Virus record (IMG/VR): IMGVR_UViG_3300018418_000019
Location: 1-60,373 of that record
Strand: one strand, 5' to 3'
From: a virus
DNA: 60,373 nucleotides
The notes beneath the pieces are model-generated. The model worked only from the letters and a program-made list of their open reading frames with translations. It was not told where the DNA came from and ran no database searches. The position numbers and the translations under genes are program-made. Below are positions 19,600 to 33,412 of this stretch, in pieces; the first letter of the stretch is position 1; each line of letters begins with the position of its first letter.

Positions 19600-19858
19600 C
19601 TTGTATTGCTAGTTCTAGTAGTATTAAGTATCCAATTAAATCTCTGATGACGTCCTCATCTTCAGTCGCTGAGTCGTAGTTCCTCATGCGCTTGAGCTTA
19701 TCGTCGATGCGCCCAAGCAGTCCCTCGACAGGGGTTGCCTTGCTGAAGATGTTCAGTGGTTCTAACGCTGAGTCTCCGTACTTATTGTTCTTGCTTATCA
19801 AGAACTCTGCGATACTGTCGCACTGAGCTTTGATTCTTTTTGATGCGTTCTCTGACAT
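19481..19858 (-). CDS. DUF1599/Nmad1 (nucleotide modification associated) protein
   Basis: 125 residues. KNNKYGDSALEPLNIFSK at about 23-40, LLGRIDDKLKRM, and EDVIRDLIGYLILLELAI at about 72-89 form the conserved core of the DUF1599/Nmad1 family, an all-helical MazG-like group found in phages that is linked to modified nucleotides. The substrate is unknown. The C-terminal 39 residues, rich in Ser/Pro/His, overlap the primase-helicase start by 119 nt, which is unusually long for this compact genome. It overlaps the DnaA-like gene upstream by 77 nt. Confidence 0.7.
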   Translation of the reverse strand: MSENASKRIKAQCDSIAEFLISKNNKYGDSALEPLNIFSKATPVEGLLGRIDDKLKRMRNYDSATEDEDVIRDLIGYLILLELAIQDEQPNRNHLPFHSSSAGTNLYPFGDSTSTHQGGKAHNED

Positions 19859-20282: not shown

Positions 20283-20296
20283 GGCTCTATTGTGTT

Positions 20297-20339: not shown

Positions 20340-20345
20340 GATTCG

Positions 20346-20624: not shown

Positions 20625-20698
20625 TACCCCCGACAGGACTCGAACCTGTAACCGTTTGCTTAGAAGGCAAATGCTCTATCCTGTTGAGCTACGAGGGC
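20625..20698 (-). tRNA. tRNA-Arg (anticodon TCT)
   Basis: Full cloverleaf on the minus strand: acceptor GCCCTCG/CGGGGGT, D arm GCTC...GAGC with loop AACAGGATA, anticodon arm TTTGC-CTTCTAA-GCAAA with TCT in the loop, T arm ACAGG-TTCGAGT-CCTGT. Length is 74 nt and CCA is not encoded. It decodes AGA, a common arginine codon in this window. It lies between the SSB-like gene and the DnaA-like gene within the early transcript. Confidence 0.93.
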
Positions 20699-20781: not shown

Positions 20782-21036
20782 TCAGAACGGCATGCCGTCA
20801 GCTGACGTTTCAGCTGGGTTTTGAGACTTCCAGGACGCAGGGTCCTCGATAACAGCCCAGGCATTGCCTTTGTTGTTCTGCTCCTTGTTCTTGGTGATGT
20901 TCACCTTGATGTAAACGTTGCCCTTCTCAGTGGCGAACTGCTTCATCTGTTCCAACTCAGACAAGCTGAACTTGACCTTGAGTGAGACGTGTGGTTCTAC
21001 GTATCCTACGTAGTTGTTGTTTGTGTCTTTCGACAT
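20782..21036 (-). CDS. Small protein with SSB-like acidic tail
   Basis: 84 residues. It has a beta-rich N-terminal part (VSLKVKFSLSELEQMKQFA) and a C-terminal tail ending ADGMPF, resembling the DDIPF-type tail by which single-strand-binding proteins recruit partners. It is too short for a full OB-fold SSB as I read it. It lies downstream of the recombination genes ERF and exonuclease, which fits a ssDNA-associated role, but the function is inferred from tail and context only. Confidence 0.5.
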   Translation of the reverse strand: MSKDTNNNYVGYVEPHVSLKVKFSLSELEQMKQFATEKGNVYIKVNITKNKEQNNKGNAWAVIEDPASWKSQNPAETSADGMPF

Positions 21037-21046
21037 GGCTAAAAAA

Positions 21047-21319
21047 TTAAGGGTTTAGTGTATTAACGAAGTCGTTGTACTGATTTCTGAACGCAGGAAT
21101 CATCATCTTATTGTCCCCATGTACTCGCAAGAACCAAAGCTCATTGCTTGTGCAGTTGAGCGGGGCATGAAGCTCGGTGTAAGGAACGTTCTTGTCGGCG
21201 ACGAGGTACCTAACCACACTGCACTTGGCATCCCATAGTGGTGTCTGAAACTTAGTGGCCTTGGTCACGTCAGTACCGAAGTACTTGTTGGCTTGCTTGA
21301 TGATGTCCTCTGTACTCAT
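21047..21319 (-). CDS. Hypothetical protein (90 aa)
   Basis: Starts by ATGA overlap with the exonuclease stop. Soluble protein with mixed alpha/beta character (MSTEDIIKQANKYFGTDVTK start; VVRYLVADKNVPYTEL). Family not recognised. Co-transcribed with the recombination module. Confidence 0.65.
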   Translation of the reverse strand: MSTEDIIKQANKYFGTDVTKATKFQTPLWDAKCSVVRYLVADKNVPYTELHAPLNCTSNELWFLRVHGDNKMMIPAFRNQYNDFVNTLNP

Positions 21320-22917: not shown

Positions 22918-23105
22918 TGAGTTTGGTTTTTAGTGATTGAATCAACAGCTGCTCCTGCTTCTTGATGGAGCGAAGCAGTATCGCTTGGTTGATTTGTTTT
23001 ACAAAGTTCGGAAGTATTTTGTTGAAAAGCAAGGATGTGTCTGTTAATTTTGTTTAACACGGGGAGGATGACCTGTTGAAACCCCATGTGGTCAAAGGAA
23101 TCCAT
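22914..23105 (-). CDS. Hypothetical protein (63 aa)
   Basis: Begins MDSFDHMGFQQVILPVLNKI, overlaps the upstream gene by 14 nt and ends in ATGA with the membrane gene. Helical and soluble. No family recognised. Confidence 0.5.
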   Translation of the reverse strand: MDSFDHMGFQQVILPVLNKINRHILAFQQNTSELCKTNQPSDTASLHQEAGAAVDSITKNQTQ

Positions 23106-23289
23106 AACGTTCTGCGTCTCTCATAATTTTTGTGACTTGAATCATGAATCGGTTTGAGATTGCCTGTCCGTTGGTGTTGGACTGCTTCATCAGGTCTATC
23201 TTAATCTTGTGGTAGCGCACAATCTTGTCAAACAATCGCGCCTTGTCTTCGAGTGTCATGATGACCTCGTGTGGCAGTTGACCATTCAT
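23092..23289 (-). CDS. Hypothetical helical protein (65 aa)
   Basis: MNGQLPHEVIMTLEDKARLF start, mostly charged helices. It starts where the 358-residue gene stops, indicating coupling. No family recognised. Confidence 0.6.
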   Translation of the reverse strand: MNGQLPHEVIMTLEDKARLFDKIVRYHKIKIDLMKQSNTNGQAISNRFMIQVTKIMRDAERYGFL

Positions 23290-24365
23290 TACTGCTGATT
23301 TGTTTTAGTTAAACACTTGTTTATTTCAATTACAACGTCGTCAGGGATGCTGTTATTGCTCAGGAAGTGGTCGAGGTTGCGGGCCTGACTATTGTACTCC
23401 AAATCAGATTTCTCTACACTATTCTCTGCCTCAGCAAGCTTATCTCGGAGCGCCTTGAGACTCTTGCGTGAGCTCTCAGCGGACGCGCGAGAAAAGATGA
23501 GTCGCTGAATACGATTGTACATCTCTTTAGCGAGCATGAACGTCATCCCGCTACCCACAACCTTCCACAGAGAACCCAACTCGGATGCCTTTTTGTCAGG
23601 TACAACCTGAAGTGATTGGAACTCGGTGTACCCCCTGTACACAACAGAGAATTTCAGCTCTTCAACACTCATCGTCTTGTCCAAAATCTCCTTGAAGGTT
23701 TCGTCGGTGATGAACCACTTGTTGTATACTACCTTGTTGGAAGACAGTTGTCCACGCTCACGAAGATGCGTCAGCTCACGCTCGCACCGCTCCACATTGA
23801 GGTTGATGAGGTATGGGAATCCGAGGGCAATTTCCTTGAGTGAATCAGCATTTGTAACGTACTCGTAGTCGTCCACCTTCATTCCGAAGTTGTCACCGAG
23901 TTCACCCTTGAGGACTGCCAGCTGGAAGTATCCATCGAACTTAAGGACGTATGCGTTGCGGACGGGGCAGTTCAACACTCGTCGCACCCCCTGCGTGCCA
24001 ACGACATCGAACTTCTTGCCAAAGCTGTCAGCCAAGCGGTAGTCAGCGAGCGTCTTGTCAAGGCTGTCTTGAATAATGTCTGCAACCTCTTGGATATAAC
24101 GACGAAACCGCAAACCAACGTCAGTATTCATCAGCTTCTCTTGCCATTGCGCATCACGCGCGATACCATATGCCTCCTCTCCGATAATATCTCTTACCAT
24201 ATCATCTGCTTTGGAGCGGAACCTCCACCCGTTGTGCTCCTTGTAGCAGTACAGGTAGAACTTGTAGTCGTCAGACTGAATGTACTTGGTGGCTAGACGA
24301 TTGGCAGAGGGGAGCTTGTCGACAGCAACCTCGGCTTGTTTGATTTGTTCTTTTGTGTATTCCAT
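23289..24365 (-). CDS. Unrecognised early protein (358 aa) with C-terminal coiled coil
   Basis: Largest unassigned early protein. No signal peptide or membrane segment. Residues about 1-240 appear globular (NGWRFRSKADDMVRDIIGEE; VRRVLNCPVRNAYVLKFDGY). Residues about 275-330 are a charged coiled coil (SSRKSLKALRDKLAEAENSV). It is preceded by an early promoter module and followed by three small coupled genes before the ERF gene. I cannot name a family. Confidence 0.75.
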   Translation of the reverse strand: MEYTKEQIKQAEVAVDKLPSANRLATKYIQSDDYKFYLYCYKEHNGWRFRSKADDMVRDIIGEEAYGIARDAQWQEKLMNTDVGLRFRRYIQEVADIIQDSLDKTLADYRLADSFGKKFDVVGTQGVRRVLNCPVRNAYVLKFDGYFQLAVLKGELGDNFGMKVDDYEYVTNADSLKEIALGFPYLINLNVERCERELTHLRERGQLSSNKVVYNKWFITDETFKEILDKTMSVEELKFSVVYRGYTEFQSLQVVPDKKASELGSLWKVVGSGMTFMLAKEMYNRIQRLIFSRASAESSRKSLKALRDKLAEAENSVEKSDLEYNSQARNLDHFLSNNSIPDDVVIEINKCLTKTNQQ

Positions 24366-24393: not shown

Positions 24394-24419
24394 AACGGAT
24401 TAGTGTTTGGGATATTGTG
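24394..24419 (-). promoter_or_regulatory. Early promoter module A (CACAATAA-N14-CGTT type)
   Basis: Minus strand CACAATAT-N14-CGTT, 29 nt upstream of the ATG at 24365. It is accompanied by the palindrome GTTCTGTTATTAGAAC (24381-24396) and by two TTAA words 10 bp apart (24420 and 24430). One of eight copies with identical 14-nt spacing. Confidence 0.65.
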
Positions 24420-24429
24420 TTAACGGATG

Positions 24430-24597
24430 TTAAGACATCATCTCTGTTACTTTTACTCGGATGACCATGCTCGATGGTCTTCCATCGTTGAATACCATCC
24501 AAGTGCGTGCCTCATCCTTTCGGGTGAACAGGGGCGTGCCATCGTAGATTCGGTCGTCTATCTCGTTGTAGACAGTCCAGTAGGTGTCAGTCTTCAT
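24430..24597 (-). CDS. Small early protein (55 aa)
   Basis: MKTDTYWTVYNEIDDRIYDG start; overlaps the upstream gene end by 11 nt. A compact, probably beta-rich protein (TYWTVYNE, SSMVIRVKV) ending at the module A boundary. No family recognised. Confidence 0.55.
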   Translation of the reverse strand: MKTDTYWTVYNEIDDRIYDGTPLFTRKDEARTWMVFNDGRPSSMVIRVKVTEMMS

Positions 24598-24832
24598 CGC
24601 TCACGGTTTGAAATTCAACGCCATCGAGCTGATTCTCTGCCTCCGACACGACCTCATCGAGGCACTCTACGAAGTATCGTAGTTCGGTCAGCATATCCTC
24701 GGTGGACATTACACGGACGCAGTTCTTAATCTCATAGAACAGGTGGCCGAATTCATCGACAACACGGGCTGTCTCTCGGAGAGATGGGGCGCAGTCCCAT
24801 CCGTCCTCTGTTGTTTTCTTGATAGTACTCAT
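24587..24832 (-). CDS. Small acidic early protein (81 aa)
   Basis: MSTIKKTTEDGWDCAPSLRE start, then an acidic helical C-terminus (YFVECLDEVVSEAENQL). ATGA coupling with the preceding gene. No family recognised. Confidence 0.6.
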   Translation of the reverse strand: MSTIKKTTEDGWDCAPSLRETARVVDEFGHLFYEIKNCVRVMSTEDMLTELRYFVECLDEVVSEAENQLDGVEFQTVSDED

Positions 24833-25020
24833 TGTTCTGAAAGGTTTAATTTCGTTTTATTGCAGAGGTAGTTAAGGTCTGTGCATAGGTCGTGTAGTGC
24901 CTGACGTGGGTCAAAGTTGGGGTTGTCACGCTGACACTCTTGGTAGTACTGCATGATTTTCAAGAACTGACCACCGCATGCGGCCAACTCAATCATGGTT
25001 GCTGTATCTGACTTAGGCAT
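24829..25020 (-). CDS. Small early protein (63 aa)
   Basis: MPKSDTATMIELAACGGQFL start, helical, three Cys. The leader (CCCCAATACACAATG) resembles the shared early leader but lacks the bipartite promoter box, so it is read from an upstream promoter. No family recognised. Confidence 0.6.
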   Translation of the reverse strand: MPKSDTATMIELAACGGQFLKIMQYYQECQRDNPNFDPRQALHDLCTDLNYLCNKTKLNLSEQ

Positions 25021-25041
25021 TGTGTATTGGGGTTAGGGGGT

Positions 25042-25218
25042 TTATCTTTCTTCGGTGTAGATGACTTCCATCCACGCTCTGTACGAACCTGCGTCTCTGA
25101 TGTCCGAGATGGCTGTTTGAAGGGCGCTGATAACCTCATCTGTTGGGATGTCGGACTTGTCGTCGTGGTGTACGTGCGTAACCAATTCTAACGTGCTGAT
25201 GTACTTGGGTCGGGGCAT
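25042..25218 (-). CDS. Small early protein (58 aa)
   Basis: MPRPKYISTLELVTHVHHDD start with a His-rich patch (THVHHDD), ending EVIYTEER. It follows the shared AAACCCTTAAACCCAATACACTATG-type leader and early promoter module J. No family recognised. Confidence 0.55.
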   Translation of the reverse strand: MPRPKYISTLELVTHVHHDDKSDIPTDEVISALQTAISDIRDAGSYRAWMEVIYTEER

Positions 25219-25250
25219 AGTGTATTGGGTTTAAGGGTTTCTACTTATTC

Positions 25251-25276
25251 AACGTGGGAGGTGTCAGTTTATTGTT
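25251..25276 (-). promoter_or_regulatory. Early promoter module J
   Basis: Minus strand AACAATAA-N14-CGTT located 33 nt upstream of the ATG at 25218. The upstream box overlaps the end of the preceding 54-codon gene. Confidence 0.6.
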
Positions 25277-25428
25277 TTGCCTTCGTAGTTGTCAGAGATT
25301 ACTGAGTGCTCTGCTCGCAAGGCGAGTTCTCGTGCCTCTTCGAGGCTGTTGGTGCCGATGCACTGGTCTGGTGCTTCGCCTCCGTGGTACAGGTACACTG
25401 CGTACCTCATGTATTGATGCTCTTTCAT
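25264..25428 (-). CDS. Small early protein (54 aa)
   Basis: MKEHQYMRYAVYLYHGGEAP start. Compact pattern of strand, Glu/Ala-rich helix (SLEEARELALRAEHSV), strand, like small phage-encoded regulators. Preceded by module B. No family recognised. Confidence 0.6.
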   Translation of the reverse strand: MKEHQYMRYAVYLYHGGEAPDQCIGTNSLEEARELALRAEHSVISDNYEGKTIN

Positions 25429-25459
25429 TGCGCTTGTGTTTAAGGGTTTCTAGTATTAG

Positions 25460-25485
25460 AACGTATGTGTTCTCGGTTTATTGTG
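25460..25485 (-). promoter_or_regulatory. Early promoter module B
   Basis: Minus strand CACAATAA-N14-CGTT, 32 nt upstream of the ATG at 25428. It carries the palindrome TTCTA-GTAT-TAGAA (25448-25461) and an AGAAC...GTTCT pair that shares one arm with it. Confidence 0.65.
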
Positions 25486-25495
25486 TGAATGAATG

Positions 25496-25711
25496 TTAAA
25501 TTCCTAGTTCGTACTTCATGTCAGGGATATCCACAAAGTCTGCCCAAATGGACGCGATGGAGCGTGCTACAAAGTCTGCGAACTCGTCACCCCTATCACC
25601 GAGCTCACGATAGTGTGCGTATACGTCGGGTACAACGGATTCGTGGAGCAGGTTGCACGTATCAATGGCAAGCTGTCGGCCACGGATTACTTCTTTGATG
25701 GTCAGGCTCAT
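25496..25711 (-). CDS. Small early protein (71 aa)
   Basis: MSLTIKEVIRGRQLAIDTCN start, helical. ATGA overlap with the upstream gene. No family recognised. Confidence 0.6.
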   Translation of the reverse strand: MSLTIKEVIRGRQLAIDTCNLLHESVVPDVYAHYRELGDRGDEFADFVARSIASIWADFVDIPDMKYELGI

Positions 25712-25932
25712 ACGTAGTCAAGATTGCAGGTGATGTCACCTTGGTTGTTGAGGTATCCTTGGAGGACGAGGTTACGTGCGCCACGTCCGTAGCTTCCTTG
25801 GAGTTGATTCACGAGGCCCGTCTTGATGAGGTTGGAGAACAACACGATGGTGTCTGCGTTGCTCAACTCACCTGACTCAAAGGCCACGATGGTGGTGACG
25901 AGGTCACCTTTGGTCTGCTTTCTCTTATTCAT
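25708..25932 (-). CDS. Small conserved phage protein, DUF7417-like
   Basis: 74 residues. The core VAFESGELSNADTIVLFSNL, then GLVNQLQGSYGR and a C-terminal GYL/GxI segment resemble a small family widespread in phage early regions. I recall it as DUF7417, without a known function. Coupled to the following gene by ATGA. Confidence 0.6.
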   Translation of the reverse strand: MNKRKQTKGDLVTTIVAFESGELSNADTIVLFSNLIKTGLVNQLQGSYGRGARNLVLQGYLNNQGDITCNLDYV

Positions 25933-26185
25933 TGTCTTCGATTTGTGTTTGTGATTCCTCGATGATTCGGAGTATGTCTCCGAGGTTGTGAAACGGAACG
26001 CTGTCCCCTATCACGTCAGTTATCTTTCCCTTGTGGTGCTTGACGAGAGCCATCTCCTGCATCCCGTCACAAATCTCGACCAAGGATATCGCCAAGCTGT
26101 CAGACAGGTGCAGTTTTATTTGGCCGCGTTGCGTACCCACAAGGTGGGTCAGGACAACACCAATGCTGTGTGGGTCAAAGGTCAT
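25925..26185 (-). CDS. Small early protein (86 aa)
   Basis: MTFDPHSIGVVLTHLVGTQR start, mixed alpha/beta, acidic C-terminus (ESQTQIEDNE). Coupled by ATGA to the upstream 48-codon gene and overlapping the next by 8 nt. No family recognised. Confidence 0.6.
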   Translation of the reverse strand: MTFDPHSIGVVLTHLVGTQRGQIKLHLSDSLAISLVEICDGMQEMALVKHHKGKITDVIGDSVPFHNLGDILRIIEESQTQIEDNE

Positions 26186-26328
26186 GACTTGTTCTTTGAG
26201 AGGTTGAACGTGGATGGCTTGGCGGTCTTGGACAACTGCTCCGCGAGAGACTTGTTGTGTGCCTTGATAGCCGCGTCCTGCATCTTGGCGAGGTCAACGA
26301 CGATGTTGAAGATGTCTTTGCTGTTCAT
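26182..26328 (-). CDS. Small early protein (48 aa)
   Basis: MNSKDIFNIVVDLAKMQDAA start, amphipathic helix with a basic Ser/Lys tail (NLSKNKS). First gene behind promoter module C. ATGA with the next gene. No family recognised. Confidence 0.55.
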   Translation of the reverse strand: MNSKDIFNIVVDLAKMQDAAIKAHNKSLAEQLSKTAKPSTFNLSKNKS

Positions 26329-26360
26329 AGCGTATTGTGTTTAAGGGTTTCTAGTAGTAG

Positions 26361-26386
26361 AACGCTATCGTTCTTGAGTTATTGTG
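26361..26386 (-). promoter_or_regulatory. Early promoter module C
   Basis: Minus strand CACAATAA-N14-CGTT, 33 nt upstream of the ATG at 26328. Two overlapping inverted repeats, AGAACG-CTAT-CGTTCT (26359-26374) and TTCTA-GTAG-TAGAA (26349-26362), share an arm and so cannot form together. Confidence 0.65.
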
Positions 26387-26405
26387 TCTGAATTGTAAAA
26401 AAGTG

Positions 26406-26651
26406 TTAACGCTTTGGTCTTCCGTATAGACGTTCGAGCATCAGGAACTCACGTCCCAACCACCCCTTGGATGGAGGTCTCCCGTCCTCGTAGTGAACGA
26501 TGTTCTTCCACACCTGAACGAAAGGATAGGCATCTTTCGGGTCTCCCTGCGCAATGTGCTTGTGGATGGCAGAGCACGCGCTGTCGTAGCTTGTGTAGAG
26601 TCCGAGCACCTCGTCTCCGTCCTCAATCAAGAATACATGGTTGTATGGCAT
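26406..26651 (-). CDS. Small early protein (81 aa)
   Basis: The ATG at 26651 is chosen because it forms TGATG with the upstream stop; a GTG one codon earlier also exists. The sequence begins MPYNHVFLIEDGDEVLGLYT, then an Ala/His helix, and ends in a basic tail (YGRPKR). The plan (strand, helix, strand) resembles other small early proteins here. No family recognised. Confidence 0.6.
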   Translation of the reverse strand: MPYNHVFLIEDGDEVLGLYTSYDSACSAIHKHIAQGDPKDAYPFVQVWKNIVHYEDGRPPSKGWLGREFLMLERLYGRPKR

Positions 26652-26815
26652 CACTTCTTCTTTTCTTGTTGTAAAAATTCTCGAATCCGCACAGGGTCAA
26701 TCGTTCCGTACTGCTTCATCAATCTTGCTTCGCGCTCTCGTCGAGCCGCGTCAACCTGAACCTGAAGGTTCGTTGATAGGGTTGTCCCCTTTGGGTATCT
26801 ATCCCATATGTTCAT
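26651..26815 (-). CDS. Small basic early protein (54 aa)
   Basis: The ATG at 26815 follows the shared TTAAACCCAATACACATG leader; the longer in-frame extension upstream is out of frame with the real gene there and is rejected. The sequence begins MNIWDRYPKGTTLSTNLQVQ, with a charged helix and a poly-basic end (QQEKKK). No family recognised. Confidence 0.55.
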   Translation of the reverse strand: MNIWDRYPKGTTLSTNLQVQVDAARREREARLMKQYGTIDPVRIREFLQQEKKK

Positions 26816-26834
26816 GTGTATTGGGTTTAAGGGT

Positions 26835-27125
26835 TTAGTATTCTCCGTAAAAGTATTCGATAGTCCCGTCCATGTTGACCAATCCTCGACGCGGTGCGTC
26901 GTCGGGGTCCACAGCGATTCCGAATTGCGTGTCCTCCTGCGCCATCTTCTTTGCCTCCATGAGGAGTTGGACACAGGCATCGCGGAGTTCGCTATCGGCC
27001 ATCTGACGGATGTGGTAGCAGAAATCGTTGACCATGACGTGGGTGGTGTCGCCCATCGTGCTGATGTGCTTGGTGTAGCCATCGCTCGTGACGATGGTCT
27101 TGCTAATTTTTGGGAGCATGCTCAT
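26835..27125 (-). CDS. Small early protein (96 aa)
   Basis: MSMLPKISKTIVTSDGYTKH start, mixed alpha/beta, C-terminus GTIEYFYGEY. Uses the shared early leader but has no own bipartite box, so it is probably co-transcribed from module D. No family recognised. Confidence 0.65.
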   Translation of the reverse strand: MSMLPKISKTIVTSDGYTKHISTMGDTTHVMVNDFCYHIRQMADSELRDACVQLLMEAKKMAQEDTQFGIAVDPDDAPRRGLVNMDGTIEYFYGEY

Positions 27126-27156
27126 TGCATTGGGTTTAAGGGGTTTGTAGTTAGTC

Positions 27157-27219
27157 TTACTTGGTGCCGCCGCTCTCGCTCTTGATGCAGTAGCGTTTAG
27201 TGAACCAGTAGTTGCTCAT
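27157..27219 (-). CDS. Tiny early ORF (20 aa)
   Basis: Encodes MSNYWFTKRYCIKSESGGTK. The support is positional: it is the first start codon behind module D, has the standard early leader and is followed at normal distance by the next gene. It could be a leader peptide. Confidence 0.35.
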   Translation of the reverse strand: MSNYWFTKRYCIKSESGGTK

Positions 27220-27251
27220 AGTGTGTTGTGTTTAAGGGTTTCTAGTACTAT

Positions 27252-27277
27252 AACGTGGTGGGGAGAACCTTATTGCC
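27252..27277 (-). promoter_or_regulatory. Early promoter module D with nested hairpin
   Basis: Minus strand GGCAATAA-N14-CGTT, 33 nt upstream of the ATG at 27219. A GGGGAG...CTCCCC hairpin (27260-27283) overlaps it directly after the ArdC stop, and TTAA words lie 10 bp apart at 27289 and 27299. The outer box differs from consensus only where the hairpin overlaps. Confidence 0.55.
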
Positions 27278-27297
27278 CTCCCCGTTGTTAACGAACG

Positions 27298-28188
27298 TTA
27301 ATCTCCGAGGATGCAGTCGACAGCTTTCATGGCCTGTGTGCATGCGCTCACGAGGAACTTCTTGTCGTTGCCAATCTTGCTAATCCATCCATTGATGTAG
27401 GCCTGTGAGTTCGTGTGGTCAGACTTGGGTTGGATGCCCACGATACCTGTCAGGAACTGCGCACCAACCTCTGCCACCAACTCCTCCTTGCTGTAGTCCT
27501 CGTCACCGAACGAGTTCATGTCCACCAAGGTCTTGCGGTTCAACAGCGTCTCGTGACCTGTGCTGTGCGTCAACTCGTGGAAGAGCACCTTGTAGTAGTC
27601 GTCAGGTGACACGAAGGACTCCATCTTCGGCATCTGCACATGGTGCTTCGCAGGCATGTAGTAGGCGCGGTCTCCTCCCTGCTTCAGGGTTGGACGTCCG
27701 TTGAACTGCTCGTAGATGGCCTCGGCTCGCTCGATAGGCGTTCCATCGTTTCCTGCCTCGACAGACTTCCGCAATGGCTCGATGTCGTCGCATTGGGCAA
27801 TGTTGAACACGTTGTAGGAGCGCAGGGAGAACAGCTTCTCGTAGGGCATGCCCACAGGAATCTCAGACTCCTTCTTGTACAGCTTGCCGTCCTCTCCCTT
27901 GAAGAAGATGTTCCAAAAGATGACCAAGGCAGACTTCTCTCCCTTGCGCACCTGACCACCAAGCTTCTCTGCCTGCTTGTAGGTCAGCCATTCGTTGTGC
28001 TCGTATCCTTTCTCCTCCATCTCTGCGAAGAGGAAGAACACGTTCATGCCCTTGTACGGACGGCCCGTCACTCGGTTGATAGGCGACAGCCCACCGCTAC
28101 CTTCCCATGGTCGGAACCATGCCATGCCTTTGGCCTTCAATCCATCGAGCACGCGCTCGGTCACCTTGTCATATACGTCTTGCTTCAT
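27298..28188 (-). CDS. ardC: ArdC-type antirestriction protein
   Basis: 296 residues from the ATG at 28188, which overlaps the stop of the small gene before it (ATGA); a longer frame upstream is rejected. Residues about 1-125 match the ArdC N-terminal ssDNA-binding domain (AWFRPWEGSGGLSPINRVTG, YKGMNVFFL, GGQVRKGEKSALVIFW). Residues about 150-290 are the zincin-like peptidase domain with HELTH at 204-208 and a downstream Glu (SKEELVAEVGAQFL). Proteins of this family protect incoming single-stranded or phage DNA from host restriction enzymes. Its early position fits rapid deployment after injection. Confidence 0.88.
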   Translation of the reverse strand: MKQDVYDKVTERVLDGLKAKGMAWFRPWEGSGGLSPINRVTGRPYKGMNVFFLFAEMEEKGYEHNEWLTYKQAEKLGGQVRKGEKSALVIFWNIFFKGEDGKLYKKESEIPVGMPYEKLFSLRSYNVFNIAQCDDIEPLRKSVEAGNDGTPIERAEAIYEQFNGRPTLKQGGDRAYYMPAKHHVQMPKMESFVSPDDYYKVLFHELTHSTGHETLLNRKTLVDMNSFGDEDYSKEELVAEVGAQFLTGIVGIQPKSDHTNSQAYINGWISKIGNDKKFLVSACTQAMKAVDCILGD

Positions 28189-28307
28189 TGTGTTTGAGTT
28201 TCTAGGTAGTCTAACGTCATGTTGAGTCCGATTCGTATGCAGGAGAGCACCAAACTCCAACCTGCGTACATGCCCAAGATGTGGGCGAAGATGTCCATGC
28301 TAGTCAT
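28185..28307 (-). CDS. Small membrane protein coupled to ArdC (40 aa)
   Basis: The start overlaps the previous stop (TGATG) and the end overlaps the ArdC start (ATGA). It begins MTSMDIFAHILGMYAGWSLV and continues as one hydrophobic helix (to IRIGL), with an acidic tail. Translational coupling on both sides argues it is real. No family recognised. Confidence 0.55.
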   Translation of the reverse strand: MTSMDIFAHILGMYAGWSLVLSCIRIGLNMTLDYLETQTQ

Positions 28308-28597
28308 CACCCTTCGATTCGTGCCTTGTAGTCGTTGTACAGGTCAGTCAGCATGTCGATGCATGTCTCCTTAGCTCCTCCATTCGGGTTGGGGACGAAC
28401 CCGTCCTGCACGTTGCAGATGAATCGAGCCATGGACTTGACAGCGCTTGGGCGAACTCCCGCCACGAAGTTCAGCATGGGCAGGAACTTGCTTGGGTTGC
28501 CGAGGTAGGAGTTCACGATGAGAACTGCGCTACCAACAGGTTGGGCGGAGATGCGAGCATTGCGCTCGTTGCGGATGTTTGCTTGCTCTTGGGTCAT
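28307..28597 (-). CDS. Small early protein (96 aa)
   Basis: MTQEQANIRNERNARISAQP start, then a hydrophobic stretch (GSAVLIVNSYL) and a helical C-terminus. First gene of the ArdC unit behind module F. No family recognised. Confidence 0.65.
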   Translation of the reverse strand: MTQEQANIRNERNARISAQPVGSAVLIVNSYLGNPSKFLPMLNFVAGVRPSAVKSMARFICNVQDGFVPNPNGGAKETCIDMLTDLYNDYKARIEG

Positions 28598-28613
28598 TGT
28601 GGTTGGGGTTTGT

Positions 28614-28635
28614 GGGGAGACGGAGTTGCCTCCCC
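28614..28635. terminator. GGGGAG/CTCCCC hairpin between early genes
   Basis: Inverted repeat GGGGAG-N10-CTCCCC in the leader between module F and the 28597 start codon. There is no U-tract on the minus strand. It could be an attenuator or an RNA stability element; a similar hairpin follows ArdC. Confidence 0.35.
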
Positions 28636-28648
28636 TTGTTGATAGTGT

Positions 28649-28674
28649 AACGTTGTCGGTCTCGGGTTATTGTG
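28649..28674 (-). promoter_or_regulatory. Early promoter module F
   Basis: Minus strand CACAATAA-N14-CGTT, 52 nt upstream of the ATG at 28597. The upstream box includes the TAA stop of the preceding gene. Confidence 0.6.
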
Positions 28675-28984
28675 CCTTGGCTCTCTCGACCATGTCCTCC
28701 AAGTGAGATGCCTCCTTTCTGGCTGTGGCGTACATGCGCTTCATGCGCTCGCACTCTGCGCGTTCGATAGCCAACTGCTCGGCCATGGTGCGAACCAAGT
28801 TCTGCAACTCGGTTGCTACTTCCTTGATGCTTCTCTGCGTCATGCGCTGAACGTCAGCGATGGTGCAAACGCCATCCTCGTAGCGTTGTTCGTTGCCAAT
28901 TACGTTGGCCATGTTGCGCAAACGTTGCGCTGAAACGCCTGCCTTCTCGTTGCAGATGTCGATGTACTTTTGCATTTCGCTCAT
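28667..28984 (-). CDS. First early protein (105 aa), helical
   Basis: Starts at the ATG at 28984 (MSEMQKYIDICNEKAGVSAQ); a frame extending into the hub is rejected. Predominantly helical, with a coiled-coil C-terminus (EQLAIERAECERMKRMYATA, ASHLEDMVERAKAQ). It is the first gene leftward from the divergent hub and thus probably the earliest expressed. No family recognised. Confidence 0.7.
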   Translation of the reverse strand: MSEMQKYIDICNEKAGVSAQRLRNMANVIGNEQRYEDGVCTIADVQRMTQRSIKEVATELQNLVRTMAEQLAIERAECERMKRMYATARKEASHLEDMVERAKAQ

Positions 28985-29040
28985 AATGAGTAAGTTATGT
29001 GGTTTGTGGCTAGGAATCAGCTCCCGCCTTCTGATACCTA

Positions 29041-29066
29041 TACGTTCTCGTGCTTGGTTTGTTGTG
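29041..29066 (-). promoter_or_regulatory. Early promoter module H
   Basis: Minus strand CACAACAA-N14-CGTA, 57 nt upstream of the ATG at 28984. The most diverged copy of the early element, at the head of the early block. Confidence 0.45.
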
Positions 29067-29361
29067 TGCCAAATGCAAAAAAAAGCCAACGTGTCTCGTG
29101 CCCCACGTTTGGGGTTTTCCCCTAGACAAGTGAATTGGGGTGAGGGATTGTGCCTGTGGCCTGTGGGTCTCGTCTCTCGTTCGGTTGTTCGGGCTGTGTT
29201 GTGTGTGCCTGCAGGAAAGCCAAAAGGCAAAGTCAAAACCTGAAATCCAAAAGCAGGAATCGAAGACCCCCTGGGGTTCGGGATTCGGTTTCGGTTCGGG
29301 TTGCCGCTGCATCCTGTATACGTATAATCCCCTGGGTGCGTGGAGCTGACCCATTTTCACG

Positions 29362-29369
29362 TAGCTTTG
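29362..29369 (+). promoter_or_regulatory. TAGCTTTG promoter box
   Basis: Matches TAnnTTTG, 22 nt before a 24-codon ORF. No good TTG at -33. Possible minor rightward promoter in the hub. Confidence 0.3.
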
Positions 29370-29391
29370 CATAAAAATTATACGCCCTAAT

Positions 29392-29466
29392 ATGTGTTAC
29401 GCTCTTCTTGCTGTCACCCTTCTTGCCATTGTATTGCATCACCTGTATCCCAACAAGAACTACTAG
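29392..29466 (+). CDS. Possible tiny hydrophobic peptide (24 aa)
   Basis: Encodes MCYALLAVTLLAIVLHHLYP plus a short polar tail. It resembles a single membrane helix or a signal peptide without cargo. It lies in the hub downstream of a TAGCTTTG box. Evidence is weak. Confidence 0.25.
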   Translation: MCYALLAVTLLAIVLHHLYPNKNY

Positions 29467-29467
29467 T

Positions 29468-29487
29468 CGTTAACACTCGTTAACACT
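29468..29487 (+). repeat. Tandem 10-bp repeat CGTTAACACT x2
   Basis: Two exact copies in direct tandem, each containing the palindrome GTTAAC, placed 11 bp upstream of the -33 TTG of the late promoter. The 10-bp period puts both on the same DNA face, as expected for an operator. Similar TTAA pairs 10 bp apart occur beside early modules A and D. Confidence 0.6.
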
Positions 29488-29497
29488 TATAGAGTAC

Positions 29498-29528
29498 TTG
29501 ACTTTTCAAAAAAAAAGTAGTACCTTTG
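29498..29528 (+). promoter_or_regulatory. Strong Bacteroidota-type promoter (TTG-N20-TACCTTTG)
   Basis: TTG at 29498-29500, a 20-nt A-rich spacer and TACCTTTG at 29521-29528 match the Bacteroidota sigma consensus at both boxes. It fires rightward into the late block from the divergent hub. Confidence 0.75.
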
Positions 29529-29651
29529 CTACATCCTTGAGCGGCAGTCTTAGGGTTACGGACCTTGGGGGTCCTCACCCAGTCAGACTTTTGGGACCAT
29601 ACAGGATACCAAGTCCGCTTAAAGAAAAAAGTATCAAGGGTTAGCTGTATC

Positions 29652-29813
29652 ATGGAAATTAATCCCCACCTGGCCCTTCTTATGGCCGCCACCAACAACA
29701 CCAGAGGTCAACACACGGCCAGAGGTAGACGCAGAGCTATGGCGAGAGCTATAGATAAGCTGAGCAATAAAGTATCTCCCCCTTCGTTAGATGAGAATGA
29801 AGGAACCGATTAA
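29652..29813 (+). CDS. Small basic protein (53 aa)
   Basis: Starts at MEINPHLALLMAATNNTRGQ, with an Arg-rich centre (TARGRRRAMARAIDKL) and an acidic tail. First gene of the late block. Possibly nucleic-acid binding. No family recognised. Confidence 0.5.
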   Translation: MEINPHLALLMAATNNTRGQHTARGRRRAMARAIDKLSNKVSPPSLDENEGTD

Positions 29814-30063
29814 CATGTGTGACGTCGTCCTGTATGACGGGAAGACTAAGAGGGAGTACAAGCTGTTCGATGCAATCCTTGTGGGCAACAGCAAAGAGCT
29901 AATCTGGAAGAACGAGTATTTCAGGGACAAGCTCATACGGGATATCTTTAGGACGAAGGCCCGCATAGCCACACAACAGCAGAACCTACACCTTATATGT
30001 AGGGACATTAAGTTTAAGAAGCTGATAAGCTACTCCACCGTAAAGTGGGGTTGTACTAAATAA
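29791..30063 (+). CDS. Hypothetical protein (90 aa)
   Basis: Overlaps the previous gene by 23 nt; the start may be the ATG at 29791 or 29797 (MKEPINMCDVV). Basic, mixed alpha/beta (YDGKTKREYKLFDAILVG). No family recognised. Confidence 0.55.
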   Translation: MRMKEPINMCDVVLYDGKTKREYKLFDAILVGNSKELIWKNEYFRDKLIRDIFRTKARIATQQQNLHLICRDIKFKKLISYSTVKWGCTK

Positions 30064-30064
30064 G

Positions 30065-30072
30065 TATATTTG
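30065..30072 (+). promoter_or_regulatory. TATATTTG promoter box, near-leaderless start
   Basis: TAnnTTTG ending 4 nt before the ATG at 30077. Predicts a leaderless transcript for the chain of small basic proteins. Confidence 0.6.
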
Positions 30073-30076
30073 CTGT

Positions 30077-30322
30077 ATGCTCGTATCAAAGAAACCTAAA
30101 GGCACACCAGGTACCAGCCGCACGGCGGTAACCAAGCTGTCGTCATCTGCCGTATCTGAGGGAGCGAAGAGAGAAGTGGAGGAGGTTCGCAACTACCTTA
30201 TGAAGGCTGTACCCGATGCAACACTCGATGAGGACTTCCTCGTTAAGGTTGCCTCCACATGGTCACTGTCGCGTAAGAACCCAACGGTTCTCGATGCCGC
30301 TGTTAAGCACCTGCAGAAATGA
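30077..30322 (+). CDS. Small basic protein (81 aa)
   Basis: MLVSKKPKGTPGTSRTAVTK start, then a helical C-terminus (VEEVRNYLMKAVPDATLDED). It shares the VSKKP N-terminal word with the next gene. No family recognised. Confidence 0.6.
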   Translation: MLVSKKPKGTPGTSRTAVTKLSSSAVSEGAKREVEEVRNYLMKAVPDATLDEDFLVKVASTWSLSRKNPTVLDAAVKHLQK

Positions 30323-30501
30323 AAGTATCTAAGAAGCCATCGGGTGTTAGACACCTACTCAGTTATCTCGAAAATCACAAAGGCCCACGTCCAGACTCAT
30401 CTGTTAAGTCAGAGAAGGAGCTTTTGCTGAAGGAGTACAAAGCTGGCATCATCACTATTGATGAGTACAATAAGGCCCTTGAAAAACTTTCGATGCAGTG
30501 A
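30319..30501 (+). CDS. Small basic protein (60 aa)
   Basis: MKVSKKPSGVRHLLSYLENH start; ATGA overlap with the previous gene. The C-terminus (LLKEYKAGIITIDEYNKALE) resembles the short helical SHOCT-like motif found at protein ends. No firm family. Confidence 0.55.
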   Translation: MKVSKKPSGVRHLLSYLENHKGPRPDSSVKSEKELLLKEYKAGIITIDEYNKALEKLSMQ

Positions 30502-30683
30502 AGACATCTAAGCGCAAAGACAGAGGTAAGCTCAGCGTATCCGAAAAGAAAATTTCGGTCGCGCCTCCAGCGGGGTATCATTGGATGGAGGAGCGGGGTC
30601 GGTTCTACCTTATGAAGGGAGACTACAAACCTCACCCTGGCGCTATGAAGGAGGCGGAGTTTAGAGTAGCTTCGCACTCATGA
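30498..30683 (+). CDS. Small basic protein (61 aa)
   Basis: GTG start overlapping the previous stop (MKTSKRKDRGKLSVSEKKIS). Contains PPAGYHWMEERGRFYLMKGD, a short aromatic module seen in small phage structural or packaging proteins. Function unknown. Confidence 0.55.
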   Translation: MKTSKRKDRGKLSVSEKKISVAPPAGYHWMEERGRFYLMKGDYKPHPGAMKEAEFRVASHS

Positions 30684-30808
30684 AGAAACAAGTATCTGTT
30701 TATGTCAGCAACACCGCAAAGAGAAAGGGTGTTCACGCCAAGACAAAGTCATCCAAGAACAAGCGTAGCAAGCTCTATAAGAAGCGCAACGTGGGTCAGG
30801 GCAGGTGA
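30680..30808 (+). CDS. Very basic small protein (42 aa)
   Basis: ATGA overlap with the previous gene. The sequence begins MKKQVSVYVSNTAKRKGVHA and over a third of the residues are Lys/Arg. The SNTxKRKGVHAKTKSSK pattern recurs, as I recall, in small proteins of Bacteroidota phages. A nucleic-acid-binding or virion DNA role is plausible. Confidence 0.6.
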   Translation: MKKQVSVYVSNTAKRKGVHAKTKSSKNKRSKLYKKRNVGQGR

Positions 30809-30831
30809 CGGAGTCGTTAGTGATAAATAAC

Positions 30832-30839
30832 TATCTTTG
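30832..30839 (+). promoter_or_regulatory. TATCTTTG promoter box, near-leaderless start
   Basis: TAnnTTTG ending 4 nt (AGCC) before the ATG at 30844. Predicts a leaderless mRNA. Confidence 0.6.
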
Positions 30840-30843
30840 AGCC

Positions 30844-31989
30844 ATGCCAGGATATCACAACAGAAAGAAGAAGCTCTACAATATGGGTGGGGCGGTCGAG
30901 GAACCTCGCCCGATGGATAAGATTATTTCGTACCTGAAGGTTGGTGGTGGCCACAGATACCCTCGTGAGTTTGAGCAGAAGATGCTGAGAATACAAGAAC
31001 TATTCGATGCTGGTGAGATTAACGGGTCTCAGATGGCCGAAATGGTTAAATCCGCCAGTCAAGACATCGAGGAGTACACTGGCTCAGATGGCCGCTTACG
31101 TGGCTCTTTTATTGAGAACTCAGCGAAGAGAAAGGCGTTGGATGGCCGCGAGCTTATGACAAACAAGATGGGCGATGGAGGCGTCATAAAATATGATGAT
31201 GGTGGATTGCTCGAAGCACTGAAGAGAGCTAACGCAGCAGGCCGCGATACCGACCCTGGGTTTTTGAGACAAGGTCCAAATCAAACTCCAGTAACCACCG
31301 AAGAGGGATTCTTGATTAAGGGCGACCCAAACCCTAACATCAGCAAGCTCAAGGATGTTGTGATGGCGTCTGAAACAACCAATAGGCTTGGGGGCGTGGA
31401 GCCTCAGGTTGGATATGTGAAATACGTTAATCCTGGAAAGATGTCCATGGAAAAGCGTGAGCTCCCACGAGAAGAGCCAACAGAAAAGCCTAAGCCAATA
31501 CTCATCCCACCAGAAAAACCAACCACTCCTCCCAAAGAGATTCCACCAGAAGTTAACTTCAACATGGATACCGACGGGCTTGAAACGTCAGCACTGTTTG
31601 ACAGAGGTATCGCTCAGTCTGGTGTGCGAGGAGAGGGTACGACTGGAGGGTTCAGAGGTGTGCGTAGCGACATCACTAATAACGGACGTCTGATAGAGAG
31701 GGGAGAAACAACCAGTGTGGAGGACTTGCCCGAGTACATCAGGGAAGACCCCACCTTTAAGAACCTGCTCGCACAGGCCAACGAGACCAAGTACATGCAG
31801 GATATCGGAAGAAGAGAGGGTAAGTACAGCGCCCCAGGTGGGCAGGCAGCCCAAGACCTAGCCGATATCTTGAGCGGCAGGATTACGCTCGATGCGTATA
31901 AGGAGCGACAGAACAGAGCGTCTGCCTCGTTTGGATACGGAGGTAAGATGAAGTTCGGAGTAAGTAAGAAAAGAAGAGGGGGCCGCTAA
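30844..31989 (+). CDS. Unrecognised late protein (381 aa), Pro-rich linker
   Basis: The basic N-terminus (MPGYHNRKKKLYNMGG) is followed by a helical part (EFEQKMLRIQELFDAGEING). The middle is low-complexity Pro/Lys/Glu-rich (residues about 207-240, KPILIPPEKPTTPPKEIPPE), and the C-terminus is basic Gly-rich (GYGGKMKFGVSKKRRGGR). Disorder and basic ends suggest a virion or packaging-associated protein. It is alone behind its own promoter and ends in a terminator. Family unknown. Confidence 0.65.
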   Translation: MPGYHNRKKKLYNMGGAVEEPRPMDKIISYLKVGGGHRYPREFEQKMLRIQELFDAGEINGSQMAEMVKSASQDIEEYTGSDGRLRGSFIENSAKRKALDGRELMTNKMGDGGVIKYDDGGLLEALKRANAAGRDTDPGFLRQGPNQTPVTTEEGFLIKGDPNPNISKLKDVVMASETTNRLGGVEPQVGYVKYVNPGKMSMEKRELPREEPTEKPKPILIPPEKPTTPPKEIPPEVNFNMDTDGLETSALFDRGIAQSGVRGEGTTGGFRGVRSDITNNGRLIERGETTSVEDLPEYIREDPTFKNLLAQANETKYMQDIGRREGKYSAPGGQAAQDLADILSGRITLDAYKERQNRASASFGYGGKMKFGVSKKRRGGR

Positions 31990-32004
31990 GCCCCCTTCTT
32001 TTTT
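31975..32004 (+). terminator. Rho-independent terminator
   Basis: AGGGGGC-N6-GCCCCCT hairpin whose loop contains the TAA stop of the 30844 gene, followed by TCTTTTTT. It separates this unit from the convergent minus-strand exported-protein gene and may work both ways. Confidence 0.8.
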
Positions 32005-32245
32005 ATTGCTGCCCTGCCCGAGCTCGGACTAGTGGCCGAACATAAGGCGCCCGCATAATCTGGTTGCCAGCGGGTTGCTTCAGATTGAAGCCAGGGTCGT
32101 TCCATGGCAGCGGTCGACCGAGCGCAACAGCAGTACCAACTGGAACTGAACTTCTGCTAAGGCGTCGTGCCTTTCTTTCTGCCGTGTCTACGAAAGGTGC
32201 CCCGATAAGGACGATTGCCAAGAGGCGGATAATGAACTTCTTCAT
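32003..32245 (-). CDS. Small exported protein (80 aa)
   Basis: Starts at the ATG at 32245 with a signal peptide (MKKFIIRLLAIVLIGAPFVD). The mature part is short, basic and Pro/Arg-rich (ERKARRLSRSSVPVGTAVAL). It is on the minus strand inside the rightward late block and has early promoter module G, so it should be expressed early. Possible envelope-acting protein such as an exclusion factor. No family recognised. Confidence 0.65.
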   Translation of the reverse strand: MKKFIIRLLAIVLIGAPFVDTAERKARRLSRSSVPVGTAVALGRPLPWNDPGFNLKQPAGNQIMRAPYVRPLVRARAGQQ

Positions 32246-32287
32246 GAGTATGAATTTATTAGATTTGTGGTGTGTTTCTGTCTCTAT

Positions 32288-32313
32288 AACGGAACACATT
32301 TCTGGTTATTGTG
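32288..32313 (-). promoter_or_regulatory. Early promoter module G
   Basis: Minus strand CACAATAA-N14-CGTT, 43 nt upstream of the ATG at 32245. It is a copy of the early element outside the main early block, with an ATAAC...GTTAT inverted pair spanning it. Confidence 0.6.
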
Positions 32314-32328: not shown

Positions 32329-32985
32329 ATGGTTCCAAAGAAAAAAGACAAGTCGGACAGCGGAAGGTACTACTTCTTTGGCGCATATCCAGAACAAGCT
32401 GTGGCACCCAAGGGGTATGAGTACAACGAGGGACTTAACTTGGTGCCAGAGGGCTGGGATGAATACCACGAGGAGCAAGACAGCATAGACTTGAACCGTA
32501 TGATTGACCGACAGATGGCAGTAGAGTCATCGTACCTACCAGGCCGCACGTCAAGTGCGGGGGCCACGGGCCTCGGTCAATTCAGACCCATAGCGCAGAA
32601 AGAAGTTGTAAGACTTGGTATCATGCCAGAGGGTTGGGACCCTAACGACCCTCAGCAAGCTAGGGATGCTATGTATGGTTACATGGAGAATCTCTACGAT
32701 AGGGAGTGGGTGCATGCTGGTGATAGCGACCCTATGGTTGCGTATGCTAAGGCAGCCTTCGCGTATAACGCGGGGGAAGGTACGGCTGTCAGCGAGCTCA
32801 ACCGACTCAAGAAAGAGGGCTACGATATATACAACAGCCTAGACTGGATTAAAGAGATTAACAAAGAGAGCAGAGAGTATATCGAGCAGCTTGCTGGTAT
32901 GGATACCGAGAAGGGTCGACAGTTCGAGGAGAACTGGCCTACGTTTGATTCTCGCCGCCAGAGGATTTTCGGGGAGCAATCTTAA
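32329..32985 (+). CDS. Lytic transglycosylase (SLT domain)
   Basis: 218 residues. The SLT-type goose-lysozyme-like domain spans about 55-160: catalytic Glu66 in RQMAVESSYL, then SSAGATGLGQFRP and AFAYNAGEGTA, the three signature motifs. It cleaves the glycan backbone of peptidoglycan, either as endolysin or as a virion-borne enzyme aiding DNA entry. No signal peptide is present. Its 3' end overlaps the convergent winged-helix gene by 47 nt. It is far from the holin cassette unless the genome is circular. Confidence 0.87.
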   Translation: MVPKKKDKSDSGRYYFFGAYPEQAVAPKGYEYNEGLNLVPEGWDEYHEEQDSIDLNRMIDRQMAVESSYLPGRTSSAGATGLGQFRPIAQKEVVRLGIMPEGWDPNDPQQARDAMYGYMENLYDREWVHAGDSDPMVAYAKAAFAYNAGEGTAVSELNRLKKEGYDIYNSLDWIKEINKESREYIEQLAGMDTEKGRQFEENWPTFDSRRQRIFGEQS

Positions 32986-33412
32986 TTACCTCTTCTCCGT
33001 GTAGCTTGCGGTAGAACCGCTGGATGATTAGTCTAGCTTTTTGAGTGAGCTGATATCTGGCCTTATATGTGTTCTTGTCATACTTAAGGAATGCCAGCTG
33101 TTCCATTGTAACCTTCTCTAGGTCTGTCCTGTAGTATATGCGCTCAATCATATTCCTCTGGCACAAAGGGTTTATGACTCTCTCGTAAAATTTCTTAGGA
33201 CTCTGATGCAGAGCCTTGGCTATATGGTTCTTTGTAAAGAACTCATAGTCATACATGAACAGCATGGACTCTAGCTCGTTCTCTGTTATGTCGTGCCTAC
33301 TGCATATATCCCTCTTCGCTAGCTTGTAGTACTTGAGGTAGTTGTGATTCACGTACCTCTCATTAAGCATAGAGAACTCTCGAAACTTCCTGCCCGTATG
33401 TGTTCTGCTCAT
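32939..33412 (-). CDS. Winged-helix (MarR-like) DNA-binding regulator
   Basis: 157 residues. Helices with ITENELESMLFMYDYEFFTK (about 42-61), HIAKALHQSPKKFYERVINP and a beta wing (MIERIYYRTD...YQLTQKAR) match a MarR-type winged helix with a final helix LIIQRFYRKL. It is on the minus strand between late units and is divergent from the fibre gene at 33444, whose promoter lies in the 31-nt gap. A role in switching early to late transcription is inferred. Confidence 0.65.
   Translation of the reverse strand: MSRTHTGRKFREFSMLNERYVNHNYLKYYKLAKRDICSRHDITENELESMLFMYDYEFFTKNHIAKALHQSPKKFYERVINPLCQRNMIERIYYRTDLEKVTMEQLAFLKYDKNTYKARYQLTQKARLIIQRFYRKLHGEEVIKIAPRKSSGGENQT

Follow-up and report, generated by a model that had tools for sequence, protein, structure and literature searches.

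A two-part sequence element recurs upstream of minus-strand genes in a virus record of 60,373 nucleotides (IMGVR_UViG_3300018418_000019; "the window" below, meaning the whole stretch of DNA analyzed), raising the question of which transcription machinery might recognize it. The initial annotation had described eight rigidly spaced copies and suggested that they mark a distinct early sigma factor or an activator. Direct reading of the sequence found all eight on the minus strand at the positions described and within the two differences allowed: the match is exact at 25460, 26361, 28649 and 32288, carries one mismatch at 24394 and 25251 and two at 27252 and 29041. The distance from CGTT to a start codon is likewise 29-57 nt at all eight sites.

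Element copies and their architecture

The form CACAATAA-N14-CGTT occupies 25460..25485 (predicted +1 at 25451; gene start at 25428), 26361..26386 (predicted +1 at 26352; gene start at 26328), 28649..28674 (predicted +1 at 28640; gene 28307-28597, upstream of ardC) and 32288..32313 (predicted +1 at 32279; a small secreted-like gene, 32003-32245). The copy at 24394..24419, CACAATAT-N14-CGTT with a predicted +1 at 24385, is placed to drive the 358-aa gene 23289-24365 and likely also the recombination and replication genes beyond it. At 25251..25276, AACAATAA-N14-CGTT (predicted +1 at 25242) precedes gene 25040-25218, and the homologous site in relative L032 (G008) reads CACAATAA. The copy at 27252..27277, GGCAATAA-N14-CGTT with a predicted +1 at 27243, sits within a GGGGAG/CTCCCC inverted repeat and occurs in an N15 version in G008; the first ATG after its CGTT opens an ORF of just 20 codons, which is followed by gene 26835-27125. 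The weakest copy is the degenerate CACAACAA-N14-CGTA at 29041..29066 (predicted +1 at 29032; gene 28667-28984), in which the second box is CGTA.

A scan of the whole window allowing at most one mismatch returned nine minus-strand sites, no plus-strand site and none with a reversed-pattern control, against a mean of 0.1 site per genome (maximum 1) in 60 simulated genomes. With three mismatches the pattern is uninformative (49 sites vs 47 by chance). Four further sites probably belong to the set. One of them, AGCAATAA-N15-CGTT at 23334..23360 on the minus strand, sits where gene 23289-24365 ends, 45 nt ahead of gene 23092-23289, and has homologous sites in G004 and G007. On the plus strand, AGCAATAA-N14-CGTT at 29763..29788 is followed by an ATG (29797) exactly 8 nt past CGTT, an arrangement repeated in four relatives (G004, G007, G008 and G009), with CACAATAA as the box in G004. 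The remaining two lie inside genes on the minus strand: GACAATAA-N14-CGTT at 21090..21115, 53 nt before gene 20782-21036, where G005 retains CGTT despite an Ala to Ser change, and AACAATAA-N14-CGTT at 19764..19789, upstream of the primase-helicase gene 17794-19599, where the GCG TT(A/G) codons are kept in all relatives. Both in-gene copies are located at gene ends. Another candidate, at 21898, was rejected; its first box varies among relatives and it looks like a coding coincidence.

The element is kept in four to five related phages, with approximately no sites in the reversed control; three distant phages (G020, G022 and G024) yielded no convincing sites. The proposed spacing of exactly 14 nt holds for all eight sites in the window, but the true range is 14-15, as N15 copies occur in relatives: across six phage records, CACAATAW-N(k)-CGTT was found 22 times at k=14, three times at k=15 and at no other k from 6 to 29. 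Alignment of the sites revealed a longer conserved element, CACAATAW-mCnrA..C..-CGTT-nTAnTAnYAGAAA with TTAAC upstream, in which the second box is CGTT at 28 of 30 phage sites (the exceptions being one CGTA and one TGTT). Judged by its sequence, the element is a full sigma-type promoter, with CACAATAW at -34 to -27, CGTT at -12 to -9 and a predicted start at the A of YAGAAA. We infer that this A, 9 nt past CGTT, is the start base; in three genes of distant relatives the ATG falls exactly on the predicted +1 A, as in leaderless transcripts. The -30/-10 geometry of the boxes and the nearly fixed spacer, with CACAAT-N16/17-CGTT as the sole spacing, fit an ECF (group IV) promoter, as does a -10 box with a CGT core.

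Bacteroidota sigma-A (sigma-ABfr) promoters carry TTTG or TAnnTTTG, and this class is also present in the phage. TAnnTTTG occurs 29 times on the plus strand, including before plus-strand genes, and four times on the minus strand, and a canonical host sigma-A promoter, TTGAC-N20-TACCTTTG, lies at 29498..29528 on the plus strand, divergent from the element-driven region. By contrast, TAnnTTTG is missing from all eight minus-strand element promoters, and their alignment lacks TTGACA / TATAAT, so that the earlier distinction of the element from both TAnnTTTG late promoters and sigma-70 promoters is borne out. A structured RNA at 29528 has no match in Rfam. The element-driven region includes an ardC-like antirestriction gene (27298..28188, minus strand), for which G004 has a separate N15 element, together with small orphan genes, and it is plausible that these genes are expressed early in infection.

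A matching promoter beside a Bacteroidota ECF sigma gene

The initial annotation had also suggested searching bacteria for a sigma factor of this preference. The search found the same boxes and spacing directly downstream of an ECF gene, whose product is thus a candidate reader: ACAATAW-N14/15-CGTT lies just past the stop codon in orthologs of one particular single-copy ECF sigma factor of ~194 aa, which has nth and bcp as neighbors in the genomes where it was first encountered and is present in 156 of 198 and 118 of 120 genomes of two Bacteroidota orders. At the 3' end of this gene, ACAATAW/ATACTAW-N14/15-CGTT was found in 29 of 30 close and 16 of 19 distant Flavobacteriales and in 16 of 30 genomes of a second order, compared with a shuffled mean of 0.135 of 30; the strict form adjoins 15/30, 6/19 and 5/30 orthologs, respectively, and appears nowhere else in 211 kb. 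Only G375, G103 and G177 served for discovery, the remaining genomes constituting the test. The site is kept across two orders although the spacer sequence has wholly changed, and a small gene adjoining the ECF gene carries the same promoter. When a profile built from the bacterial sites alone was applied to the window, its top six hits were noted sites and seven of the eight ranked in the top nine, with 25460 as joint top match and 29041 missed. Genome-wide, the strict pattern showed no excess over the reversed control in any of 396 sampled Bacteroidota genomes, and the full phage element profile (53 positions) gave chance-level scores only in the same genomes. The bacterial signal lay in the position of matches, not in their number. 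As a pointer to the host, the M43 peptidase of the phage was uninformative, with one match (25%), in Saprospiraceae.

Type IX secretion genes provide a second bacterial context. With at most one mismatch, the element form occurs upstream of porU in 14 of 30 genomes (vs 0.46 shuffled and 1 reversed) and upstream of gldN in 3 of 17 (vs 0.16), while the strict form was found once in each set (1/30 and 1/17); at these sites the first box mostly differs from the phage form by one base. According to a 5'-end RNA-seq study of Flavobacterium psychrophilum, porU and gldN have ECF-type promoters of class SM6 (PMC9723704). Like the phage element, SM6 promoters have a CGT box in the -10 region, but they are known from bacterial genes, not from a phage, and the likeness is one of CGT box and of placement at porU/gldN (PMC9723704). 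Porphyromonas gingivalis SigP (PGN_0274), an ECF sigma of 193 aa that controls por/T9SS genes, resembles the 194-aa candidate, whose promoter form precedes porU, in size and target genes; however, the SigP motif derived from gel-shift probes is a single block, unlike the two-box phage element (PMC4800418). The alpha-proteobacterial EcfG promoter, GGAAC-N16-CGTT, shares the CGTT -10 box and is spaced equally to phage CACAAT-N16/17-CGTT, but its -35 box is GGAAC rather than CACAATAW and it belongs to another phylum (PMC7083833). Motif 2 of Bacteroides thetaiotaomicron, linked in two reports to the ECF sigmas SigW-1/SigH-1, has -30/-10 elements with TGTT at -10; its likeness to the phage element is one of layout and -10 box (PMC7366714, PMC12596196).

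Candidate readers of the element

On sequence grounds, the element quite probably constitutes a whole promoter that is recognized by an ECF-type (group IV) sigma factor encoded by a Bacteroidota host. The ECF holoenzyme would read CACAATAW (-35) and CGTT (-10, then nTAnTA), 14-15 nt apart, and begin transcription 9 nt past CGTT, at the A in YAGAAA, yielding mRNAs that mostly have ~24-nt A-rich leaders with no Shine-Dalgarno sequence or are leaderless. The ~194-aa ECF sigma described above, near-universal and present in single copy, would be the prime candidate reader, and the element class may be that of the 'CGT-box' SM6 promoters found at type IX secretion genes. We infer that this nth-adjacent sigma reads the elements in infected cells and that these act early. 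Minus-strand operons (antirestriction, small orphans, recombination, replication) would thereby be placed under a host ECF regulator, and TAnnTTTG promoters of the host sigma-A-like kind would serve the plus-strand structural genes; if early, the element-driven starts at 25451, 26352 and 28640 would precede TATATTTG starts.

Since the targets of the numerous Bacteroidota ECFs overlap, another ECF, or several of them, may act as the reader. A refinement in which the reader is a different host ECF sigma of the SM6 class, or several, and not specifically the nth-adjacent ortholog, draws on F. psychrophilum, for which the RNA-seq study describes seven ECFs and considers SM6 possibly read by several (PMC9723704). 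Conservation of the site downstream of the nth-adjacent gene across two orders, in spite of the replaced spacer, makes this refinement rather unlikely.

It is improbable that a phage-encoded or virion-delivered apparatus, such as a divergent sigma factor or RNA polymerase acting in a crAss-like manner, reads the element. The phage does carry a crAss-type muzzle protein, a 3438-aa protein of unknown function and many conserved unannotated small genes. However, Pfam and PHROGs scans found no recognizable sigma factor or RNA polymerase in the phage, two sigma-domain searches of the phages gave no match to sigma region 2 or 4 even at E 10, and no DxDGD-type RNA polymerase catalytic motif was found in the giant protein. 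The two best DNA-binding candidates were predicted to fold as a MarR-like protein of 157 aa and a DnaA-domain-IV-like protein of 196 aa, neither of which is a sigma fold, and both gave chance matches only in PDB profile searches. A phage apparatus would also leave unexplained why a bacterial ECF gene is flanked by the same promoter.

Both proteins are conserved in related phages and could bind DNA, so the element might instead be an activator or repressor site acting on sigma-A holoenzyme. The host -10 box is retained in promoters that depend on an activator, for example the middle promoters of T4. The elements, unlike these, are missing the TAnnTTTG box, their two boxes have -35/-10 geometry and they have a matching bacterial promoter next to an ECF gene, making such a site very unlikely. 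Even less credible are iterons or replication-protein sites: the phage encodes the DnaA-domain-IV-like protein and the element complement is TTATTGTG, but the sites are single and directional, are each paired with CGTT and keep a fixed distance to the gene start, and true DnaA boxes in the phage are not clustered. Of the two readers first envisaged, the evidence thus points to a separate sigma factor and not to an activator; because no sigma factor or RNA polymerase was recognized in the phage and matching promoters lie downstream of a host ECF gene, a host ECF is the likeliest.

Implications for infection and host regulation

Phages usually begin infection via the host housekeeping sigma factor or bring their own machinery. 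The match between the two-part signal and that beside a Bacteroidota ECF sigma gene suggests that this phage borrows a host regulator, not the usual housekeeping sigma, for at least eight small genes. A by-product of the comparison is a consensus at base level, ACAATAW-N14/15-CGTT, together with one definite gene to which an alternative sigma regulon can be attached. This regulon is near-universal in the sampled Bacteroidota orders, apparently lacks an assignment in the literature and is now directly testable. A tentative but real possibility is that a lytic Bacteroidota phage family has placed its early program under a host ECF of the type IX secretion/low-nutrient response, gating infection by host physiology, and that the conserved structured RNA of its strongest sigma-A promoter may restrain sigma-A holoenzyme, this last role being pure speculation. 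If true, the success of infection would be linked to an envelope/nutrient-response regulator of the host, through gene-entry promoters that are copies of ECF sigma promoters.

The two-part element and its predicted start site

The eight minus-strand copies of the two-part promoter signal CACAATAW-N14/15-CGTT that the initial annotation had placed at 24394, 25251, 25460, 26361, 27252, 28649, 29041, and 32288 were all confirmed by reading the window, a complete virus record of 60,373 bases. Allowing up to one mismatch gave nine sites on the minus strand and none on the plus strand or with a reversed control pattern, and simulated genomes of the same dinucleotide content contained a mean of 0.1 sites and a maximum of 1. 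At three mismatches the pattern occurs in the window at chance level, which leaves the strict form as the informative one.

The window carries a crAss-type muzzle protein, its terminase and portal have relatives in Flavobacterium and Cellulophaga phages, and it is a member of a podovirus-like phage group of Bacteroidota. The element is present again in all five related phage records that were examined in full or partially (G001, G004, G007, G008, and G009); its ACAATAW form occurred 44 times in five records vs once in reversed sequence. Ungapped alignment of 30 sites gave the consensus CACAATA(A/T), spacer, CGTT, and then nTAnTAnYAGAAA, with a TTAAC block often upstream and a spacer that is not random (mCnrA preference, C at position 16). 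The spacer had been described as exactly 14 nt, which stands for the main class and not as an exclusive rule: across six records CACAATAW and CGTT are separated by 14 nt in 22 cases and by 15 nt in three, ACAATAW and CGTT by 14 nt in 37 and by 15 nt in 10, and neither form was found at any other spacing from 6 to 29. Several N15 sites lie immediately 5' of genes. The element is real, well defined, and conserved.

Taking as +1 the A that is conserved in YAGAAA, 9 nt past CGTT, puts the CACAATAW box at -34 to -27, the CGTT box at -12 to -9, and the length of most leaders at about 24 nt. In two more distant phages, G021 and G023, whose terminase is about 75% identical, the ATG of three genes coincides exactly with the predicted +1 base, and plus-strand site 29763 is followed by an ATG exactly 8 nt after CGTT in five phages; these putatively leaderless genes point to a start at the A of YAGAAA. 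The A-rich AAACCCTTAAACACAATAC stretch in the leader also precedes operon-internal genes that lack the element, marking it as a translation feature outside the promoter.

Two promoter classes and the genes around them

The minus-strand operons served by the element encode small orphan proteins, ArdC antirestriction, recombination functions (ERF, exonuclease), and a primase-helicase, a gene content suggesting early expression. There are 29 plus-strand and four minus-strand copies of TAnnTTTG, which is the sigma-A housekeeping box in Bacteroidota (PMC7366714, PMC6847099), compared with 10 and 12 in the reversed controls; the copies often take the form TATATTTG, 12–29 nt 5' of plus-strand genes. 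Judged by sequence, such TATATTTG/TATCTTTG boxes (e.g., 30065, 30832, 33418, 37904, 42969, 49491, and 53378, all plus strand, 12–29 nt before genes) are putative late promoters that have the sigma-A -7 box and no clear -33 box, some so near genes that the predicted transcripts are almost leaderless. Relatives retain one strong promoter, TTGAC-N20-TACCTTTG at 29498 (plus).

Directly 3' of 29498, the only conserved canonical sigma-A promoter, lies a conserved structured RNA of about 120 nt (29528-29654, plus), with an outer stem GCUA..CCUUGA/UCAAGG..UAGC and an inner stem showing compensated changes (e.g., AGCGG/CCGCU to GAGGAC/GUCCUC). It is apparently also present in the divergent relative G034, and an Rfam search returned no match; because it ends 7 nt 5' of a small basic-protein gene, it would be a leader element or small RNA. 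A GGGGAG/CTCCCC inverted repeat overlaps the -35 box of site 27252 (27260-27283), lies inside the leader of site 28649 (28614-28635), and recurs at an intergenic junction (53345-53369).

Several other genes were noted. The predicted fold of the 19782-20372 (minus) product, which carries a DHATVLHA signature, matches DnaA domain IV (TM 0.64-0.65 to 3pvp and 1j1v), and it is possibly an origin-binding protein without ATPase. A conserved 157-aa protein of predicted MarR-like fold (32939-33412), the sole minus-strand gene between plus-strand genes, is a possible late regulator. The M43 metallopeptidase and CHU_C type IX secretion-signal genes at 13089-16006 (minus), present in G008 and variable among other relatives, are secreted host-like cargo. 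A 3438-aa protein (1017-11333, plus) with an HEGYH motif and no family match, whose gene would lie close to that of the muzzle protein on a circular genome, may be ejected. One tRNA-Arg (TCT) gene is at 20624-20698 (minus).

A candidate host ECF sigma factor

Of the distinct sigma factor that had been proposed to read the element, a phage-encoded form finds no support, sigma-domain searches and Pfam scans having detected no sigma domain in the phage and a motif search no multisubunit-type RNAP motif; a host ECF sigma fits, a form of the element adjoining the stop codon of ECF orthologs. Across 396 Bacteroidota genomes, ACAATAW-N14/15-CGTTNTA was not evidently commoner than the reversed control; in three of them an ECF sigma gene had a match at its stop codon, and this position was then tested on orthologs. 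The candidate ECF is present in 156/198 genomes of the Flavobacteriales (E 1e-40) and 118/120 of the order to which a Saprospiraceae genome belongs (E 1e-30), nearly always in single copy in both orders; tandem copies occur in some genomes (G165, G169, G217, and G269).

From -5 to +90 nt of the stop codon, loose sites (ACAATAW with one mismatch, or ATACTAW; spacers 13-16; CGTT) were found in 29/30 close orthologs, all N14, in 16/19 distant orthologs, and, mostly as N15, in 16/30 of the second order, while shuffled sequence gave 0.135 of 30 at N14/15. The ATACTAW box was admitted after the alignments had been seen, and significance rests on the strict counts: 15 of 30, 6 of 19, and 5 of 30, respectively; outside this position, 211 kb from those loci held no strict site. 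From one ortholog to the next, the boxes and the distance between them are retained and the intervening spacers have nothing in common in sequence, which is the hallmark of a functional promoter. It precedes a small, fast-evolving gene (loci L201-L230 and L231-L260) of about 47 aa in Flavobacteriales and about 80 aa in the second order. ECF sigma factors usually drive their own regulator; the 80-aa product resembles, by eye only, a short cytoplasmic anti-sigma factor, and the small gene possibly encodes a minimal anti-sigma.

Both window strands were searched with a weight matrix whose only input was 44 bacterial ECF-adjacent sites. Its six best matches are sites from the initial annotation, and seven of those eight lie within the best nine, scoring 17-20 (best controls 17.1, 12.9, and 11.6); 29041 was not recovered. 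Other near-top matches are 23334 (N15), 29763 (plus), 21090, and 19764. At the last two, which are in-gene, box codons were identical in 6/9 cases vs 22/91 elsewhere (p = 0.014), and CGTT at 21090 is intact in the related record G005 despite an Ala-to-Ser change.

Comparison with measured promoters

The SM6 motif, defined by 5'-end RNA-seq of Flavobacterium psychrophilum and ascribed to ECF sigma factors, carries a CGT box conserved at -10, is induced under low-nutrient conditions such as freshwater, and precedes type IX secretion genes, porU and gldN among them (PMC9723704). A form of the phage element is also found 5' of both genes: an A(C/T/A)AATAW-type box with N14/15-CGTT precedes porU in 14/30 genomes (0.46 expected, 1 reversed) and gldN in 3/17 (0.16 expected), loose counts that allow one first-box mismatch and include a single strict site per set. 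CGTT is an established ECF -10 box for EcfG (PMC7083833), and in Bacteroides thetaiotaomicron ECF sigmas are linked to a class of non-canonical promoters with -30/-10 elements (PMC7366714, PMC12596196). On these grounds the element is best classed as a Bacteroidota ECF-type promoter, occurring here in a phage. Within our incomplete coverage of the literature, no phage was described whose gene-entry promoters are read by a host ECF sigma. Bacteroidota carry many ECFs, and the one described here is a candidate reader; the element itself is most likely a host ECF-type promoter that the phage has copied many times.
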